Source of the DNA: Fluviicola chungangensis
GTDB taxonomy: Bacteria; Bacteroidota; Bacteroidia; Flavobacteriales_D; Crocinitomicaceae
Assembly (NCBI RefSeq): GCF_007558725.1
Contig: NZ_VLPL01000006.1
Coordinates: 124,001-188,000, forward strand
Direction of reading: 5' to 3'
DNA: 64,000 nucleotides
The notes beneath the pieces are model-generated. The model worked only from the letters and a program-made list of their open reading frames with translations, ran no database searches and was not told the origin of the DNA. Every line of letters starts with the position of its first letter. Position 1 is the first letter of the stretch. The position numbers and the translations under genes were made by a program. Shown in pieces: positions 48,609 through 55,839 of this stretch.

Positions 48609-51600
48609 TTACTCTGCCGCTACCTGTGTGCGTTTTTTCTTCTTCCATCCCATATAGCATGCAAATCCAAACAAGGCAAGCAATATAACCGATCCGATTC
48701 TTGCCACCAGATTTACAGTAGCATATTTCGGTAATTCATAAATAAATTCGATCTTGCTATGTCCGTCCTTCAATTGAATTCCACGCAGAAGGTAATTTGT
48801 CTTCAAAACAGGAACTTCTTTTCCGTTAACATATGCTTTCCACCCGATCGGATAATAAATTTCAGAGAAAACCGCCAATTGAGGGCCTTTTACGTTTGCA
48901 TCGTATGTTAATTTATTAGGAGCTGAACTTGTCAGTTTAATCTCCCCTTCTCCCGAGAATTTTCTGGTGCTTAATTTACTTGCAAATTCCGGAAGCATCA
49001 ATGCTTCGTTAGCAGGATCAAATGAATCTTCTACTTTCAGATAAACCAAGGGAGTAAATGATCTTGAGGTATCTGCCTGAAGCGTAACCAAGGGAACCAA
49101 GTTGGTATTCCCGTTAATATCCATTACAAACATCGCTTCCTGACCCTTGGTCAGTCCGCTTGCCAATTGCACTTTCATGGTATCTCTCCCGGGAACCAAA
49201 TATTGAAGGGTTTCACCTCCGTAAACAGTTGCCTCTTTCATCGGCGTACGATTAACCAAAAAGACTCCCGAGCCGCGATTTTCCGCTTTGAATTTATTGC
49301 CAAGAGCCCGGATCTCATCATTTGGAGTCGCTTCTTCACGAACTTGTTTCACCAACCAGGCATTTCCAAGCGCAGCAGGATTTAAAATCGCAGTATCTAA
49401 GCCTGATGGCGATGATTGTAAGAAATACTTCACGTTCAACATATCCAATACTTTGTTATTGGTCTGTGAAATCTGAAATTCCATCAGATTATTGATATTT
49501 CTCAATTTAGCACCGTGATAACCGCCAAGTGATTTATGGAAATAAGATGCCCTACTACTTGAAAAAGCCCCTGAAAAGTCGAGTACCCGGTAGTTTGTTG
49601 CCATACTTAAAGCATGAAAACGGTATGAGTTAATCACATTTATTTTTGCAGCCCCCTCGTATCCTAATTCATCGGCCTTTTGTTTTCCTTTTGCTTCACC
49701 TCTTTTTACTACGGCGGCCAGTGATGGATTCTGAGCTATTTCAGCAGCCATAATCTCTTCATCTCCTTTCGTTGTAGTAATCGGGTAAGCAGTCAAACCC
49801 GCTTCCTCCCAATACTTATATCCATTTCCGGAAGCATCGTCAACCGCTCCCAAATAATTGTAAGCAACAGGAACCAGATCAGCAAATGTCAATATGACCA
49901 AACCTGCAACTAAAATGATATTTGCATTTTTTTCATTCTTGGAATACAGGAAAATAAGAAATAGTCCGGCTCCAAGGAAAGCAAACAAAATTGAACGCGT
50001 CATGCTTGAACTGAAAATCTGCTTTCTGGCCATTTTAACTGCATTATACGATTCCATCTGGGAATCTACCTGCATGTTTACAAATTGTTGCACTTGTTGT
50101 GGATTTGTTATATCCAGCTGATATTCCTGTGCCGCAACCTGTGGGTCCATTTGCATTACCTGTTTGGTATATGCCTCATTCAGTCCCGCATATTGTTTCG
50201 CTTCCATCGGGTTGGTGTAGCCATCACCTAATCCGGCTACTTTCACAATAATCAAAAATGCTATGAACGATCCCAAAACAATCATGACTTTTTGTTTCTG
50301 AGCAATAACCGATTCTCGCTGCTTGATGAGCTCATTCAAAAACAAAACTCCCATTACCGGAATCGTCAGTTCAACCAACACCAAGATAATAGTAACCGCT
50401 CTGAATTTGTTATATGCAGGAACATGGTCAATGAAGAAGTTGGTTAATCCCATGAAATTTTTTCCCCATGACAGCATAATTGCCAGTACTGTTACCGCAA
50501 AAAGCGCCCACTTCATTTTGTCCTTCAGGAAAAACAAACCTAAAAATGCCAACATACAAACAATGACTCCAATGTAAACAGGGCCCGAAGTAATGGGCTG
50601 CGTCCCCCAATATGAATATCCTTTCAGCGCATTGTTTATTTCTGCCTGAGACAAATCACTGTTCTGGATTTGTTCAGAAAATGGTGAATTGCCCAATTGT
50701 TCCGATGCACCTCCCTTTACGTATGGTGAAACAAATGTGAACGTTTCATCTATTCCATAAGACCATTGAGTAATATAGTCCCGATCCAATCCAGTGGATT
50801 GATTTTTTGCAGGTAATCCATCAGGGGAAACGGTGACATCATTTCCTCCGCGGATAGAGTATTTAGCATAATCGTTTGTAAGGATAATATTCCCGCTGTT
50901 GATTACAAAGGCCAGGATAAAAACTCCGATAATCCCGGCAGCTGTGACTCCGAAGTTTTTCAAATCTTTCTTCCGGATTGCTTCCACCAAAAAGTAAATA
51001 CCCAGGAACAATAAAATAAACAAGAAATAATACGTAACCTGTACGTGGTTCATTGCCAATTCAAAGGTCATGAAGATCCCCGAAAGAATCACTCCCCACA
51101 TCCGGTTGGTCCGGAATGCATAAATAAATGCCCCCAACAAAGCAGGCAAAAATGCAGCTGCACCAGATTTGGTAACGTGTCCTGCCTGAATAACAATCAA
51201 CTCATAACTTGAAAAACTGAAAGCTATCGCACCCAAAAGCCCAACCCACGGGTTTATTTTCAGAAGCCTGGCAAACAATAAAAAACAGAGAAAATGTAAA
51301 AATATAGTTCCTACGGGATTTGGTAAAATTTTAAAATATTGACCTAAAATAGTTTTAAACCAGTTTCCCGGATATATAAGCGAAATTTGCTCTGCAGGCA
51401 TTCCTCCAAAAGCAGAGCTCGTCCACAAAGGTTCTTTACCGCTTTCCTCACGAAACAGATCTGTCTCGTTACTCATTCCTTTCCACTCCTTAATATCGTG
51501 TTGCTTCACACCATACCCTTCAAATTGTGGCTTAAAGAACATCGCTATAACAATAAACATTCCTCCGATTATTGCCAGGTACATCCAATTTTTCTGAAAA

Positions 51601-51617
51601 AAGCCTTTTATATCCAT
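48609..51617 (-). CDS. YfhO-family large membrane protein
   Basis: A 1002-residue inner-membrane protein of GT-C-like shape. Helices run from the N terminus (MYLAIIGGMFIVIAMFF) through a long multi-helix region to about residue 600; a large extracytoplasmic region (about 600-960) precedes one C-terminal helix (VARIGSVILLALFGFACYMG) and a KKKKR tail. Early motifs are DIKEWKGMSNETDLFREESG and FGGMPAEQISLIYPG. YfhO proteins in Firmicutes are linked to lipoteichoic-acid glycosylation, so a lipid-linked sugar transfer role is likely. The neighbouring glycan locus fits. Confidence 0.85.
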   Translation of the reverse strand: MDIKGFFQKNWMYLAIIGGMFIVIAMFFKPQFEGYGVKQHDIKEWKGMSNETDLFREESGKEPLWTSSAFGGMPAEQISLIYPGNWFKTILGQYFKILPNPVGTIFLHFLCFLLFARLLKINPWVGLLGAIAFSFSSYELIVIQAGHVTKSGAAAFLPALLGAFIYAFRTNRMWGVILSGIFMTFELAMNHVQVTYYFLFILLFLGIYFLVEAIRKKDLKNFGVTAAGIIGVFILAFVINSGNIILTNDYAKYSIRGGNDVTVSPDGLPAKNQSTGLDRDYITQWSYGIDETFTFVSPYVKGGASEQLGNSPFSEQIQNSDLSQAEINNALKGYSYWGTQPITSGPVYIGVIVCMLAFLGLFFLKDKMKWALFAVTVLAIMLSWGKNFMGLTNFFIDHVPAYNKFRAVTIILVLVELTIPVMGVLFLNELIKQRESVIAQKQKVMIVLGSFIAFLIIVKVAGLGDGYTNPMEAKQYAGLNEAYTKQVMQMDPQVAAQEYQLDITNPQQVQQFVNMQVDSQMESYNAVKMARKQIFSSSMTRSILFAFLGAGLFLIFLYSKNEKNANIILVAGLVILTFADLVPVAYNYLGAVDDASGNGYKYWEEAGLTAYPITTTKGDEEIMAAEIAQNPSLAAVVKRGEAKGKQKADELGYEGAAKINVINSYRFHALSMATNYRVLDFSGAFSSSRASYFHKSLGGYHGAKLRNINNLMEFQISQTNNKVLDMLNVKYFLQSSPSGLDTAILNPAALGNAWLVKQVREEATPNDEIRALGNKFKAENRGSGVFLVNRTPMKEATVYGGETLQYLVPGRDTMKVQLASGLTKGQEAMFVMDINGNTNLVPLVTLQADTSRSFTPLVYLKVEDSFDPANEALMLPEFASKLSTRKFSGEGEIKLTSSAPNKLTYDANVKGPQLAVFSEIYYPIGWKAYVNGKEVPVLKTNYLLRGIQLKDGHSKIEFIYELPKYATVNLVARIGSVILLALFGFACYMGWKKKKRTQVAAE

Positions 51618-51758: not shown

Positions 51759-52730
51759 ATGATGAAAACAGTTTCTTTGTTGTTGGTTTTAACAACCCTA
51801 GCTTTTGTAACACGCGCTTCGGATCAACTTAAGTCCGTACCGAAATTTTACATTTATAAAACCACTAAAAATACAGCCATCAAAAACGGGGAAGCCAAAC
51901 TCACCATTCATTTCGACAGTCCGAATTTCAGTGATATTCCACTAGGTTACCAGACAATCATCTATTACTCTGTCAACAATGTTGAAGATACACTGACCCT
52001 CAACACATCTTTTACTGCAACTCTCCGGTTAGCGGCAAAAAAGACTGTTTTCAAGTTTTGGCCGGGACCGGGTTATGATGAAGTGATCACAGATACGATC
52101 CAGATAGAGAACCAAACAGAAAATGAAGCACAAGTCAATTTCTATTCTGAAAACAGGATGATTGAAGTGGACAAGCCGGTCATTTACCTGCAAAATCCTG
52201 TAAAAATGGATTTTTCTCTAAAAGTAATACCCACAAACGGTTTCACATTTACTTATCCGGTGTACGAAGACGAATGGAAAGGAACTGTTTACCCAACTGG
52301 GGAAATTGAACTAAAGGGCCAAAAATATCCATACCTCTTTTGGGACTCAAAGCAAGCATTCACCTTAAAAAAACACACCAACGGATACCGGGTTTCCAAA
52401 GAAGAAATTATCCCGTTTTTGGAAAACCAGCTTTCCAATGCCCGCTTAACTTCCGCAGAAAAAACGGATTTCATCACCTATTGGGGACCGCGAATGATGC
52501 AATACGAATCCGTGTTTGTCCAGTTCTATCTCCAGGAAGACTGCAACCAATTCGCTTCAATCCACTGTGATCCGGAACCGACAGTGGTAAATCGGCTATA
52601 TATTGCATTCTCAAAATGGAACGACAAATTGGAACCTTACATTCACTCCATTGAACTGCCTGCCTTTAAACGCGATGGATTCAATCTATTGGAATGGGGT
52701 GGTTTTGAACTTAAATCAATTGCCTTATGA
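51759..52730 (+). CDS. Secreted protein of unknown function, paralogue 1 of 3
   Basis: A 323-residue protein with a signal peptide (MKTVSLLLVLTTLAFVTRA). The N-terminal 130 residues are poorly conserved; then comes a shared module: VDKPVIYLQ (K139), FTYPVYEDEWKGTVYPTGEI, KYPYLFWDS (about Y190), FLENQL and TDFITYWGPRM (about D237-M246), ending LLEWGGFEL. The module is repeated in the next two genes. I know no function; the repeated WGP and PYLFW motifs suggest an enzymatic or binding site. It overlaps gene 2 by ATGA, so all three are likely one transcript. Confidence 0.75.
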   Translation: MMKTVSLLLVLTTLAFVTRASDQLKSVPKFYIYKTTKNTAIKNGEAKLTIHFDSPNFSDIPLGYQTIIYYSVNNVEDTLTLNTSFTATLRLAAKKTVFKFWPGPGYDEVITDTIQIENQTENEAQVNFYSENRMIEVDKPVIYLQNPVKMDFSLKVIPTNGFTFTYPVYEDEWKGTVYPTGEIELKGQKYPYLFWDSKQAFTLKKHTNGYRVSKEEIIPFLENQLSNARLTSAEKTDFITYWGPRMMQYESVFVQFYLQEDCNQFASIHCDPEPTVVNRLYIAFSKWNDKLEPYIHSIELPAFKRDGFNLLEWGGFELKSIAL

Positions 52731-53704
52731 ATCGAACATTGAGTATCCTTTTTTTAGCGACGTCTTTTCTTGGTTTTTCCAAAGGAAGAGAATTACTTCC
52801 TTCGGTCTGGATTATCAAAGACAGCATTTCTGAAAAAATTCACCCGGATAGTGTTCAATTGGTTTTTAATGTGGACGACCTCTATAATCAGCTGATGCTG
52901 AACCAGCATGCTGCAATCGTGCAGGTGAAAATTGATGGAAAATCAAAGAAATATACCATTACCGATAAGCACCCGATCTTCAGATTTCCACTAGCGAAAG
53001 GGAAACACAGATTGGCTTTTTATATCAACGCCAACTTTAATGAAATATATCTTGAGCGGGAATTTATGGGAAAACACCATTACGAAATCGGATTAAATTT
53101 CCAGGGTTCTTCCAATTCCGGAAAACAAATCCTGGTGGAAAAACCGGTGATTTACCTCTATAGTGAAAAGGAAGAAGCCTTTCATCTGAAAGTGAAAACG
53201 AGTGCAGCATTACAATTTACTTATCCGGCATACAGCAATGAATGGGTGGGAACGAGTTCTCCAAACGGAACTATCCAGCTAAACGGCACCAAGTACCCAT
53301 ATCTTTTTTGGGATGCGCAACTTCCTGTCAATCAGGTGAACCTGGACTGGAACTTTGCTGATCAACTGGAAGGAAGTCACGTAATGGCTTACCTGGAAAA
53401 CCAATTGGACAAAATCGGTTTCAATGAAAAAGAGAAAGCTGATTTTATCACCTATTGGGGTCCGCGCATGCAGAAAATGAAACACCTGCAGGTTCTTTGG
53501 ATGCAAAATAAAAGTATTGATCCGATTGCCTCCCTGGAAATCTCGCCCAACTTCAAACAAAACCGCATTTACCTTGTTTTCCGGGAAACGAGCCAGTGGA
53601 ACGAACAAACTCCGGAAATCAGAATCTCTTCTCCGGAACCAATGGACCGCTCCGGAAATTACCTGGTAGAATGGGGGGGAATGGAAATTGAACCAAATTT
53701 ATAA
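52727..53704 (+). CDS. Secreted protein of unknown function, paralogue 2 of 3
   Basis: A 325-residue protein with a short signal peptide (NRTLSILFLATSFLGFSKG). The shared module is intact: EKPVIYLYSEKEE, FTYPAYSNEWVGTSSPNGTI, KYPYLFWDAQL, AYLENQLDKIGFNEKEKADF followed by ITYWGPRM, and LVEWGGMEIEPNL at the end. Gene 1 and gene 3 flank it with no more than a few bases between. No membrane helix after the signal peptide. No function known to me. Confidence 0.75.
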   Translation: MNRTLSILFLATSFLGFSKGRELLPSVWIIKDSISEKIHPDSVQLVFNVDDLYNQLMLNQHAAIVQVKIDGKSKKYTITDKHPIFRFPLAKGKHRLAFYINANFNEIYLEREFMGKHHYEIGLNFQGSSNSGKQILVEKPVIYLYSEKEEAFHLKVKTSAALQFTYPAYSNEWVGTSSPNGTIQLNGTKYPYLFWDAQLPVNQVNLDWNFADQLEGSHVMAYLENQLDKIGFNEKEKADFITYWGPRMQKMKHLQVLWMQNKSIDPIASLEISPNFKQNRIYLVFRETSQWNEQTPEIRISSPEPMDRSGNYLVEWGGMEIEPNL

Positions 53705-53705
53705 A

Positions 53706-54653
53706 ATGATGCGTCTTATCTTGTTTTTTCTGTTGATCAGCAGCAATTTGCTCGCAAACAAATTGGAATGGATTCCCGATTATTTCGTGAGATACGAAAC
53801 CGATAAACATCCGCCCCAAACTGGTTCCCGGATTAAGATCATTTGTGAGTTCGATTCGGACTATGACTTATTCCGCGAATTGCGCTTCGGGATGAATGGC
53901 AGTAACGAACGTATCAAAATGAACGACAAAAACGAAGCGGAAGTGATCCGTAAACCACAAAAAGCCGTTTTTCAATTCTATTATGACAGCCATTTCCAGG
54001 AAATCGAAACGGATTCCATAGAACTAAAAACAGGTCAACTGACGATCATTTCGCTTCATTTCAAAGCAAAAAATGATCCGCGACCGGTCAAAAAACCGGT
54101 GATTTACCTCTATCCTGATTCAGACACGGACGTATCGGTTGATTTAAACGCAAAAGGAAATCTGACATTCACTTATCCCGATTATTCCAGAGGTTGGAAA
54201 GGGACAGCGCACCCCGATGGTTCTATTGATATCAACGGAGCACTTTACCCCTATTTGTTCTGGGAATCGGAACAGGTATTCAATACCTTCGATGCAAAGA
54301 CCGGTGGTTTTCTCCTGGAAAAAGAGCAAGTCGTTCAATCCTTGGAAAAGTACCTGACAGATCTGGGTTTCAATGACAAAGAAAAAACAGATTTCATTAC
54401 TTTCTGGGCACCTGAGCTTCGGAAATACGAACAGGTACTGATCCAATTTGTACTGAATGATTCCTGCAATGCATTCGCTGCACTGGAAATCACGCCGAAA
54501 CCGCTGCATTTAAACCGGGTCTATATCGTTTGGTCACAAACAGATCAAACAAAGCCTCAGCTCGTGAAACCACAAATATTGCAGAAGCTGAACCGCGATG
54601 GTTTTGATGTACTGGAATGGGGCGGAATCGAATTAACGCCGCAACATCCCTAA
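53706..54653 (+). CDS. Secreted protein of unknown function, paralogue 3 of 3
   Basis: A 315-residue protein. I use the ATG at 53706 (MMRLILFFLLISSNLLAN), one base after the stop of gene 2; an in-frame TTG at 53688 would add six residues. The shared module reads KKPVIYLYPDSDTD, FTYPDYSRGWKGTAHPDGSI, LYPYLFWESEQ, DFITFWAPELRK (WAPE in place of WGPR) and LEWGGIEL. It is the most diverged copy at the WGP site. Function unknown. Confidence 0.75.
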   Translation: MMRLILFFLLISSNLLANKLEWIPDYFVRYETDKHPPQTGSRIKIICEFDSDYDLFRELRFGMNGSNERIKMNDKNEAEVIRKPQKAVFQFYYDSHFQEIETDSIELKTGQLTIISLHFKAKNDPRPVKKPVIYLYPDSDTDVSVDLNAKGNLTFTYPDYSRGWKGTAHPDGSIDINGALYPYLFWESEQVFNTFDAKTGGFLLEKEQVVQSLEKYLTDLGFNDKEKTDFITFWAPELRKYEQVLIQFVLNDSCNAFAALEITPKPLHLNRVYIVWSQTDQTKPQLVKPQILQKLNRDGFDVLEWGGIELTPQHP

Positions 54654-54669: not shown

Positions 54670-55839
54670 CTACTTTTTCGGATTGGCGAACATTTTCACG
54701 TCATCTCCGGTGATTTTGGCTCCGCACAGAATCACCAGGCGTTCTACGATATTTCTTAATTCCCGGATATTTCCGGTCCAATCTGTTTGTTGTAATTCAA
54801 TCAAAGCCTCATCCGTAAATTCTTTCTTTGGAATTCCATGTTCGTTGCAAACCAGGGCAATGAAATGTTCCGCAAGCATCGGAATATCTTCGCGGCGCTC
54901 ATTCAAAGAAGGAACGTGAATTAAAATAACGGCCAAACGATGGTACAAATCTTCCCGGAAACGTCCTTCAGCGATTTCCTTGCGCAAATCCTTATTGGTT
55001 GCCGCAACCACCCGGGCGTCAATCTTAATGTCTCTTTCGCTTCCGACCCGTTGGATTACATTTTCCTGCAAAGCCCTTAATACTTTTGCCTGGGCAGAAG
55101 CACTCATATCTCCGATTTCATCCAGGAACAATGTACCTCCTGATGCCAATTCAAATTTTCCTTTTTTATCTTTTACTGCAGAGGTAAATGCCCCTTTTTC
55201 ATGACCAAATAATTCACTTTCTATCAACTCACTTGGAATGGCTGCACAGTTTACTTCCACAAAAGGCATTTTCCTGCGATTGGAAAGATCATGCAACGAG
55301 CGGGCTACCAATTCCTTTCCGGAACCGTTTGCTCCCGTAATCAATACACGTGCATCTGAAGGAGCAACTTTCTCGATCATTTCTTTGATCTTGTTAATTC
55401 CCTCCGTTTCACCAATAATTGACGATCCTTTGAATTTGCGGACAGTCGTTTTCAGCTGTTTGGTTTCTTCGACCAGCACAACCCGGTCCTTTGCATTTCG
55501 GATGGTAACCAGGATCCGGTTTAAATCAAGTGGCTTTTCAATGAAATCAAATGCCCCTTTTTTAATTGCATCGACCGCTGTTTCTATGTTCCCATGACCG
55601 GAAATCATAATCACAGGTGAATCTATCTTTTGAGCAATTAATGCATCCAGGACTTCCATTCCATCCATTTGCGGCATTTTGATATCACAGAAGATAATAT
55701 CGTAAAGCGTGTTTTTTGCTTTTTCAAGTCCTTCTGCCCCATTTTCTGCTTCATCTACCTGGAAGTCTTCAAACTCCAGAATTTCACGCAGGGCCCTGCG
55801 AATAGCACGTTCATCGTCAATGATCAGTATTTTTGCCAT
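54670..55839 (-). CDS. NtrC-type response regulator without DNA-binding domain
   Basis: A 389-residue protein: receiver domain (residues 1-120, phospho-acceptor D52 in CDIKMPQMDG), then an AAA+ sigma-54 interaction domain with Walker A GANGSGKE, Walker B LFLDEIGDM and arginine region LNERREDIP. The sigma-54 contact loop reads GAFTSA rather than GAFTGA, and the protein ends a few residues after the AAA+ lid (NIRELRNIVERLVILCG), with no Fis-type helix-turn-helix. Similar short regulators occur across Flavobacteriales, as I recall. Its histidine kinase is not in the window. Confidence 0.88.
   Translation of the reverse strand: MAKILIIDDERAIRRALREILEFEDFQVDEAENGAEGLEKAKNTLYDIIFCDIKMPQMDGMEVLDALIAQKIDSPVIMISGHGNIETAVDAIKKGAFDFIEKPLDLNRILVTIRNAKDRVVLVEETKQLKTTVRKFKGSSIIGETEGINKIKEMIEKVAPSDARVLITGANGSGKELVARSLHDLSNRRKMPFVEVNCAAIPSELIESELFGHEKGAFTSAVKDKKGKFELASGGTLFLDEIGDMSASAQAKVLRALQENVIQRVGSERDIKIDARVVAATNKDLRKEIAEGRFREDLYHRLAVILIHVPSLNERREDIPMLAEHFIALVCNEHGIPKKEFTDEALIELQQTDWTGNIRELRNIVERLVILCGAKITGDDVKMFANPKK

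Follow-up and report, generated by a model that had tools for sequence, protein, structure and literature searches.

Two described domain types offer the closest comparison for the proteins considered here: the CarboxypepD_reg-like, or transthyretin-like, domains (PF13620, PF13715; carboxypeptidase D, PDB 5aq0), which resemble the N-terminal part of the Bacteroidota members of this family, and the type IX sorting tail (Por_Secre_tail, PF18962), which, likewise, is a C-terminal domain of exported Bacteroidota proteins. We analyzed three tandem genes in a 64,000-nucleotide stretch (hereafter, the window, to which coordinates refer unless another locus is named) of contig NZ_VLPL01000006.1 from the 4.27 Mb genome of Fluviicola chungangensis. 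Each gene encodes a putative exported protein ending in the same module of approximately 185 residues. Judged by Pfam, NCBIfam, PHROGs, PADLOC and the PDB, this module appears to be new, as a domain family alone, and we propose, with a probability of about 0.45, that it is an extracytoplasmic ligand-binding head. The features of the array are as follows:

51759-52730, plus strand: copy 1, 323 amino acids, with a signal peptide, a transthyretin-like N-terminal domain and the C-terminal module; the hydrophobic N-terminus is read from the sequence
51822-52160, plus strand: N-terminal domain of copy 1, with an approximate boundary; described as transthyretin-like because copy 3 and relatives have such a domain
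52161-52724, plus strand: module of copy 1 (residues 135-322), with the near-invariant charged residues K139, D196, E234, R279, R305 and E312
52727-53704, plus strand: copy 2, 325 amino acids; it begins within an ATGA overlap (52727-52730) with the end of copy 1
53135-53698, plus strand: module of copy 2, from profile and alignment
53706-54653, plus strand: copy 3, 315 amino acids, starting one base past the stop of copy 2 (53704); an alternative TTG start at 53688 would yield 321 amino acids
54084-54650, plus strand: module of copy 3, from profile and alignment

These coordinates bear out the layout described in the first-pass annotation of this DNA, which was made from the sequence alone, and because the genes overlap by ATGA or are separated by a single base, the three probably form one transcription unit. 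A promoter scan returned 7 sites versus 6.8 expected, and a terminator scan 1 versus 3.1 expected. In each protein, a signal-peptide-like hydrophobic stretch is followed by an N-terminal domain of approximately 110 residues and then by the module. Homology between the three proteins extends along most of the sequence (phmmer scores of 193 bits for copies 1 and 3, 130 bits for copies 1 and 2, and 144 bits for copies 2 and 3), with identities of 39, 41 and 39% over 185-188 residues in the module, compared to 17, 22 and 19% over 101-109 residues in the N-terminal domain. The earlier description of a shared module behind a signal peptide and a divergent N-terminal part therefore stands, except that the module is longer than the approximately 170 residues given there. 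A profile search detected no further copies of the module elsewhere in this genome.

PDB 5aq0 matches the model of copy 3 with a TM-score of 0.73-0.76 over the target and a probability of 1.00; however, the window copies have no Pfam match to the CarboxypepD_reg-like families, the Foldseek E-values lie above 1e-3, and the likeness excludes the C-terminal module. Por_Secre_tail differs from the module in length, in the phyla where it occurs and in sequence. A protein encoded on a plasmid of Ruminococcus albus 7 and named a BspA-type leucine-rich repeat surface protein ends in the module, but this name goes with the leucine-rich repeats, and the window proteins are devoid of such repeats. A match to DUF7878 (PF25297) inside the module of one relative (L033; 21 bits, E 3.5e-4) falls below the Pfam cut-off of 25 bits and is seen in 1 of 41 and 1 of 101 family members, so that it is probably due to chance. 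Searched against predicted structures of viral proteins, the model of copy 3 has nine matches that reach an E-value of 1e-3. Eight of them have TM-scores over the query no higher than 0.25; the ninth is an uncharacterized protein (A0A3G4ZNZ8) of Terrestrivirus sp., a giant virus, and this match has an E-value of 3.8e-13, a TM-score of 0.48 over the query and 20% identity over 274 columns but a root-mean-square deviation (rmsd) of 10.8 over its whole length.

As the first-pass annotation supposed, no known family was found for the module: Pfam, NCBIfam, PHROGs and PADLOC contain no model that consistently covers the module, the matches being found in one or a few members each. The window proteins themselves, searched up to an E-value of 10, yield single weak matches, the best being Minor_capsid_1 (E 0.019) and a MiiA motif (E 0.046). 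Sequence searches against solved structures were equally uninformative, with a best E-value of 0.53 (a chain named glycoside hydrolase) for a 41-row profile, nothing for an 81-row profile and nothing up to an E-value of 0.01 for a profile of the lone-copy proteins. Among the papers listed by full-text and keyword literature searches, none concerns the module family as judged by title and the start of the abstract, which speaks weakly for an absence of published work. The structure of the module is, in contrast to its relationships, predicted confidently: AlphaFold2 modeled the full copy 3 with a mean predicted local distance difference test score (pLDDT) of 89.9 and a predicted TM-score (pTM) of 0.74, and the module of copy 1 alone with a mean pLDDT of 93.3 and a pTM of 0.89. 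The predicted fold consists of eight strands, two helices (residues 84-97 and 102-116 in module numbering) and four strands with two short helices. When compared to the PDB with Foldseek, neither the full copy 3 nor the module-only model retrieved any structure at an E-value of 1e-3 or better; for the latter, the best E-value was 0.32, and the TM-score over the query did not exceed 0.20 among 50 of the 253 matches.

The case for one shared site draws on a small set of residues that are kept across the family. We counted these, in copy 1 numbering, over 213 distinct near-complete modules, 207 of which reach the end of the module. Y143, W173, E/D196 and R279 are present in all 213; P140 is found in 212/212, W242 in 212/213, K139 in 210/212 and E234 in 210/213, and among the modules that reach the end, W313 is found in 207/207, and R305 and E312 in 206/207 each. 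Because 111 of these modules come from loci found via motif patterns or tblastn, and the patterns KP[VI]IYLYP and GF..EWGG favor K139, Y143, E312 and W313, the counts for the 102 modules found by profile alone are given separately: Y143, W173, E/D196 and R279 in 102/102, K139 in 99/101, E234 in 99, W242 in 101, R305 in 95/96, and E312 and W313 in 96/96. The picture is the same in the 65 profile-only modules from outside the genus. Most of the exceptions are divergent members from the Pseudobdellovibrionaceae sample described below, the others being L051 (K139) and L096 (E312 replaced by D). All three window copies keep these residues, including K139, E/D196, R279, E312, W173, W242 and W313, and thus belong to the family. 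In the predicted fold, four strands, one helix and one loop carry the near-invariant charged residues. Among the residues conserved in at least 93% of the modules, there is no His, Ser or Cys.

The motifs listed in the first-pass annotation fared differently. FTYPxYxxxW, YPYLFW, DFITxW and EWGGxE are found in all three copies, and a motif related to KPVIYLY is present as well, albeit as KPVIYLQ in copy 1. The change from WGPR to WAPE in copy 3 (which reads WAPEL) was suspected to mark a lost site, but G and R are not conserved there in the family: in 81 modules, W is kept in 81 and P in 75, whereas the G position is mostly occupied by L (32), G (22) or A (14), and the R position mostly by R (25), K (13), Q (12), L (11), I (8) or E (5).

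The family extends over several phyla. At least 588 stretches matching the search patterns are present in bacterial and archaeal genomes, and 552 of the 588 listed encode a relative. The best 80 relatives come, chiefly, from Bacteroidota and Clostridia, and also, among others, from Doudnabacteria, Falkowbacteria, Parcubacteria, Saccharibacteria, a Pelosinus and a Pseudobdellovibrionaceae. In samples of genomes, each counting its center genome, the module was found in 17/296 genomes of the phylum of the window genome, 14/148 of the class of a Clostridia genome, 22/145 of the phylum of a Doudnabacteria genome and 8/97 of the phylum of a Pseudobdellovibrionaceae genome. In 44 of the 53 positive genomes of the first three samples (15/17, 9/14 and 20/22, respectively), there is a single match. 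Among plasmids, one record, from Ruminococcus albus, carries the module; one unannotated phage record from human feces encodes a relative, as does Terrestrivirus, judging by the predicted structure of its protein, and two scans of viral contigs yielded none. Similar C-terminal modules possibly occur in fungi; the occurrence checked here is that in Clostridia.

In nearly all proteins, the module is C-terminal, with a tail of at most 12 residues in 116 of the 118 proteins whose match reaches the module end; exceptions from outside this set are L028, with two modules, and divergent members in which the match ends 18-54 residues early. By simple heuristics for hydrophobic stretches and lipoboxes, as opposed to a signal-peptide predictor, a hydrophobic N-terminus (within the first 70 residues) is found in 110/117 module proteins compared to 250/604 other open reading frames (ORFs) of the same loci, or 93/117 compared to 193/604 at a stricter threshold, and a lipobox-like motif is found in 16/117 compared to 43/604. 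The 57 lone-copy proteins contain, as companion domains, SH3_3 (3), DUF3221 (3) and LRR_4 (2), along with one each of SLH, Big_14 (Ig-like), Cu_amine_oxidN1, a zinc ribbon, PdaC (E 1e-4) and a dockerin below the cut-off. Some members, such as L107 and L136 (211 amino acids), are scarcely more than an anchor and the module.

Several individual architectures were also noted. L028:4528-6102 (+) encodes two tandem modules in one protein (residues 133-313 and 331-519). A Ruminococcus protein, L090:2776-5523 (+), combines leucine-rich repeats, a possible dockerin (E 3.9e-4, 21 bits versus a cut-off of 22.9) and a weak SH3 with the module that follows, an arrangement which suggests that the module may also reside in a cellulosome. 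In L037:5474-6895 (-), from a genome of the same family (G015), the module follows approximately 280 residues that, by eye, resemble an outer-membrane beta-barrel but have no Pfam match. In the Doudnabacteria sample, L150, L151, L152 and L154 are proteins of 530-600 amino acids with a membrane helix and a long part before the module that is alike among some of them; L152, the one of these that was scanned, contains no Pfam family above its cut-off. L157-L162, from the Pseudobdellovibrionaceae sample, belong to a branch in which the module has diverged; their N-terminal part is rich in Tyr, Gly and Pro, and an EW pair lies close to the end.

The N-terminal domain of the array proteins is transthyretin-like by predicted fold, although the window copies are not recognized as such by profile. 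Among 101 family members (full proteins for Bacteroidota and modules for the remainder), PF13715 (CarbopepD_reg_2) matches 11 and PF13620 matches 9 at an E-value of 0.01 or better, and two relatives, L068 and L101, score 27.8 and 32.1 bits with a CarboxypepD_reg-type profile whose cut-off is 32.2, but the window copies have no match of this type up to an E-value of 10. In Foldseek comparisons, in contrast, transthyretin-like domains of carboxypeptidases align with the model of copy 3 over 80-86 columns with an rmsd of 2.7-3.5, a probability of 1.00 and E-values of 1.7e-3 to 5.8e-2, and these matches vanish from the displayed results when the module is searched alone. Matches to SusC/RagA (5/101) and BamP (2/101) are, presumably, located in the N-terminal domain, as are those to CarbopepD_reg. 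Between orthologs in the window genome and three genomes of the genus (G001, G003 and G008), the N-terminal domain and the module are about equally conserved (50-81% and 59-78% identity, respectively), unlike the paralogs, in which the N-terminal domain is far less conserved than the module (17-22% versus 39-41%).

The array is widespread in the genus. Among 14 genomes, including that of the window, 12 contain matches: three in ten genomes, four in one and seven in one, with the third match in G009 reduced to a 29-residue remnant; two genomes of approximately 2.9 Mb (G006 and G011) have none. Carriers of similar arrays are labeled Crocinitomicaceae, Crocinitomix, Flavobacteriales or Bacteroidetes, with the addition of one Chitinophaga pinensis. 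A genome from another family of the same order contains an array of eight, and other Bacteroidota arrays include two to five copies, for an overall range of 2 to 8. A tree of 50 modules places each of the three window copies with its own counterparts in G001, G003 and G008 at 100% bootstrap support; the deeper branching order is less certain, and G004, G005, G010 and G012 depart from the one-to-one scheme. When the window genome is compared to those three genomes, the ratio of nonsynonymous to synonymous substitution rates (dN/dS) can be estimated in 7 of 18 comparisons and is 0.05-0.18, a rough estimate given that dS is 1.6-3.0 in these seven and saturated in the other 11. These values are in line with the selected function that had been proposed for the module, and the separate grouping of each copy with its own counterparts indicates that the copies are distinct rather than interchangeable, also as proposed. 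Because the copies form separate, fully supported lineages with low dN/dS and the N-terminal domains of the orthologs are conserved, each copy probably has its own conserved role.

Two genes flank the array:

54670-55839, minus strand: presumably, a sigma-54-type response regulator, judging by its sequence; tail to tail with the array and a recurring landmark of the locus
48609-51617, minus strand: a 1002-amino-acid membrane protein, divergent to the array

Homologs of the regulator gene lie tail to tail with the array in G001, G003, G005, G008, G010 and G012 and, by coordinates, in G002, G007, G009 and G013, but not in G004. Within approximately 1.2 kb downstream of their arrays, seven loci from other Bacteroidota (L060, L061, L062, L064, L065, L067 and L069) encode a regulator of the same cluster; these regulators are likely orthologous to that of the window, although three further loci contribute regulators to this cluster as well. 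G006 and G011 retain the regulator gene but have no array next to it. The array thus looks like an old locus that was lost in some small genomes.

Beside some arrays, there is a small lipoprotein-like gene (L023:4772-5209 (-), L024:5176-5634 (-), L025:4452-4883 (+), L026:5002-5472 (+) and L171:1470-1913 (-)), which is also found in the array-less G006; there is no room for such a gene beside the window array. A conserved, secreted-looking protein of approximately 160 amino acids is encoded directly after the array in four loci (L064:6531-7061, L065:8416-8898, L067:6591-7082 and L069:6591-7076 (+)).

We propose that the array encodes three exported proteins from one transcription unit, in which the transthyretin-like domain would be a copy-specific stalk or docking part and the module would be the C-terminal head. 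Since a fixed set of charged and aromatic residues persists where much of the remaining sequence varies, we infer that K139, E/D196, E234, R279, R305, E312, Y143, W173, W242 and W313 cluster into one ligand-binding site that would be the same in all carriers. The head would then recognize a ligand shared among the carriers, perhaps a sugar or peptide of the cell envelope, and the variable N-terminal parts would determine where it is held, via a lipid anchor, a membrane helix, leucine-rich repeats or SH3 in other bacteria and via the transthyretin-like domain here. Binding appears somewhat likelier than catalysis because the named companions are, mostly, anchoring or binding domains.

Several observations weigh against a ligand-binding head. 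The invariant residues may form a buried structural network, and the same residues would also fit an enzyme. Of the six divergent members from the Pseudobdellovibrionaceae sample, three lack E234 and one lacks R305, and in five, the profile match stops early, leaving 40-54 residues in which the EW pair is still visible by eye. The family is patchy, being present in 6-15% of the sampled genomes and missing in 2 of the 14 genomes of the same genus. Few of the 57 lone-copy proteins match any family, and among the matches, DUF3221 (3) and DUF3298 (1) are domains without a known function. Finally, among the neighbors that recur outside Bacteroidota in 82 loci, none is an obvious partner: an ABC ATPase is found in 12 loci, Bacteroidota included, a transporter-like protein in 4 (one in Flavobacterium) and an aldolase-like protein in 5 Clostridia loci. 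The profile search with the module and the survey of its neighbors, as proposed in the first-pass annotation, brought out relatives in several phyla and no obvious partner gene outside Bacteroidota.

The main rival, that the module is an extracytoplasmic enzyme acting, for example, on envelope glycans or peptides, with the invariant Lys, Glu and Arg being catalytic or substrate-holding, is a serious although unlikely alternative. It would account for the conservation of six near-invariant charged residues across several phyla, more than we judge most binding domains to keep, and for the existence of proteins that consist of almost the module alone. However, apart from PdaC in a single lone-copy protein, the named companions include no enzyme-related match and are mostly of the binding or anchoring kind, there is no significant similarity to any enzyme by sequence or fold, the best-scoring chain named glycoside hydrolase notwithstanding, and the highly conserved positions include no His, Ser or Cys.

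Rather improbable, in our view, is a structural or assembly domain, in which the invariant residues would hold the fold and the array proteins would assemble into a filament or complex. The C-terminal position of the module, the tandem arrays of distinct, conserved copies and the invariant Pro, Gly and Trp, residue types that frequently serve a structural purpose, are compatible with such a role, but the location of the charged invariants on four strands, a helix and a loop would be unusual for a pure scaffold. Furthermore, hetero-assembly cannot be general because most of the positive genomes (44/53) hold a single match and the size of the arrays varies from 2 to 8 copies; for the same reason, the fixed three-subunit complex envisaged in the first-pass annotation is not upheld.

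That the module serves as a tail for sorting or anchoring, akin to the type IX C-terminal signals, is very improbable, notwithstanding its C-terminal position in Bacteroidota, which are rich in such tails, given its approximately 185 residues compared to the 75 positions of the type IX tail model, its presence in Clostridia and Patescibacteria-type genomes, where type IX secretion is not known, and the lack of any match of this model to the three proteins or the 101 members, compared to at least 150 matches in the window genome. The array proteins likewise have none of the tails expected of type IX cargo. As the proteins possess a signal peptide but no type IX tail, the periplasm is as likely a location as the cell surface, which the first-pass annotation had suggested.

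The aldolase-like gene mentioned above, named by its sequence, lies at varying distances from the module gene (L085:7514-8473, L097:10809-11672, L106:1316-2293, L112:9126-9989 and L117:4635-5579 (+)) and may reflect chance neighborhood of a common gene.

Altogether, we consider it plausible, at somewhat less than even odds, that the module is a new extracytoplasmic domain with an unsolved fold and one invariant active or binding site for a ligand that the envelopes or surroundings of Bacteroidota, Clostridia, Patescibacteria and Bdellovibrionota share, and that it was multiplied to operons of up to eight specialized copies in this lineage. A domain that occurs across some four phyla, also in small genomes, and that keeps around ten residues nearly invariant in a predicted fold for which no solved relative was found would be a sizeable gap in the domain catalogs. 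With the fold model and this small set of residues, the function of the module can be addressed directly by experiment, and a label would become available for numerous lipoproteins and anchored proteins, so far unnamed, in Clostridia of the gut and rumen.

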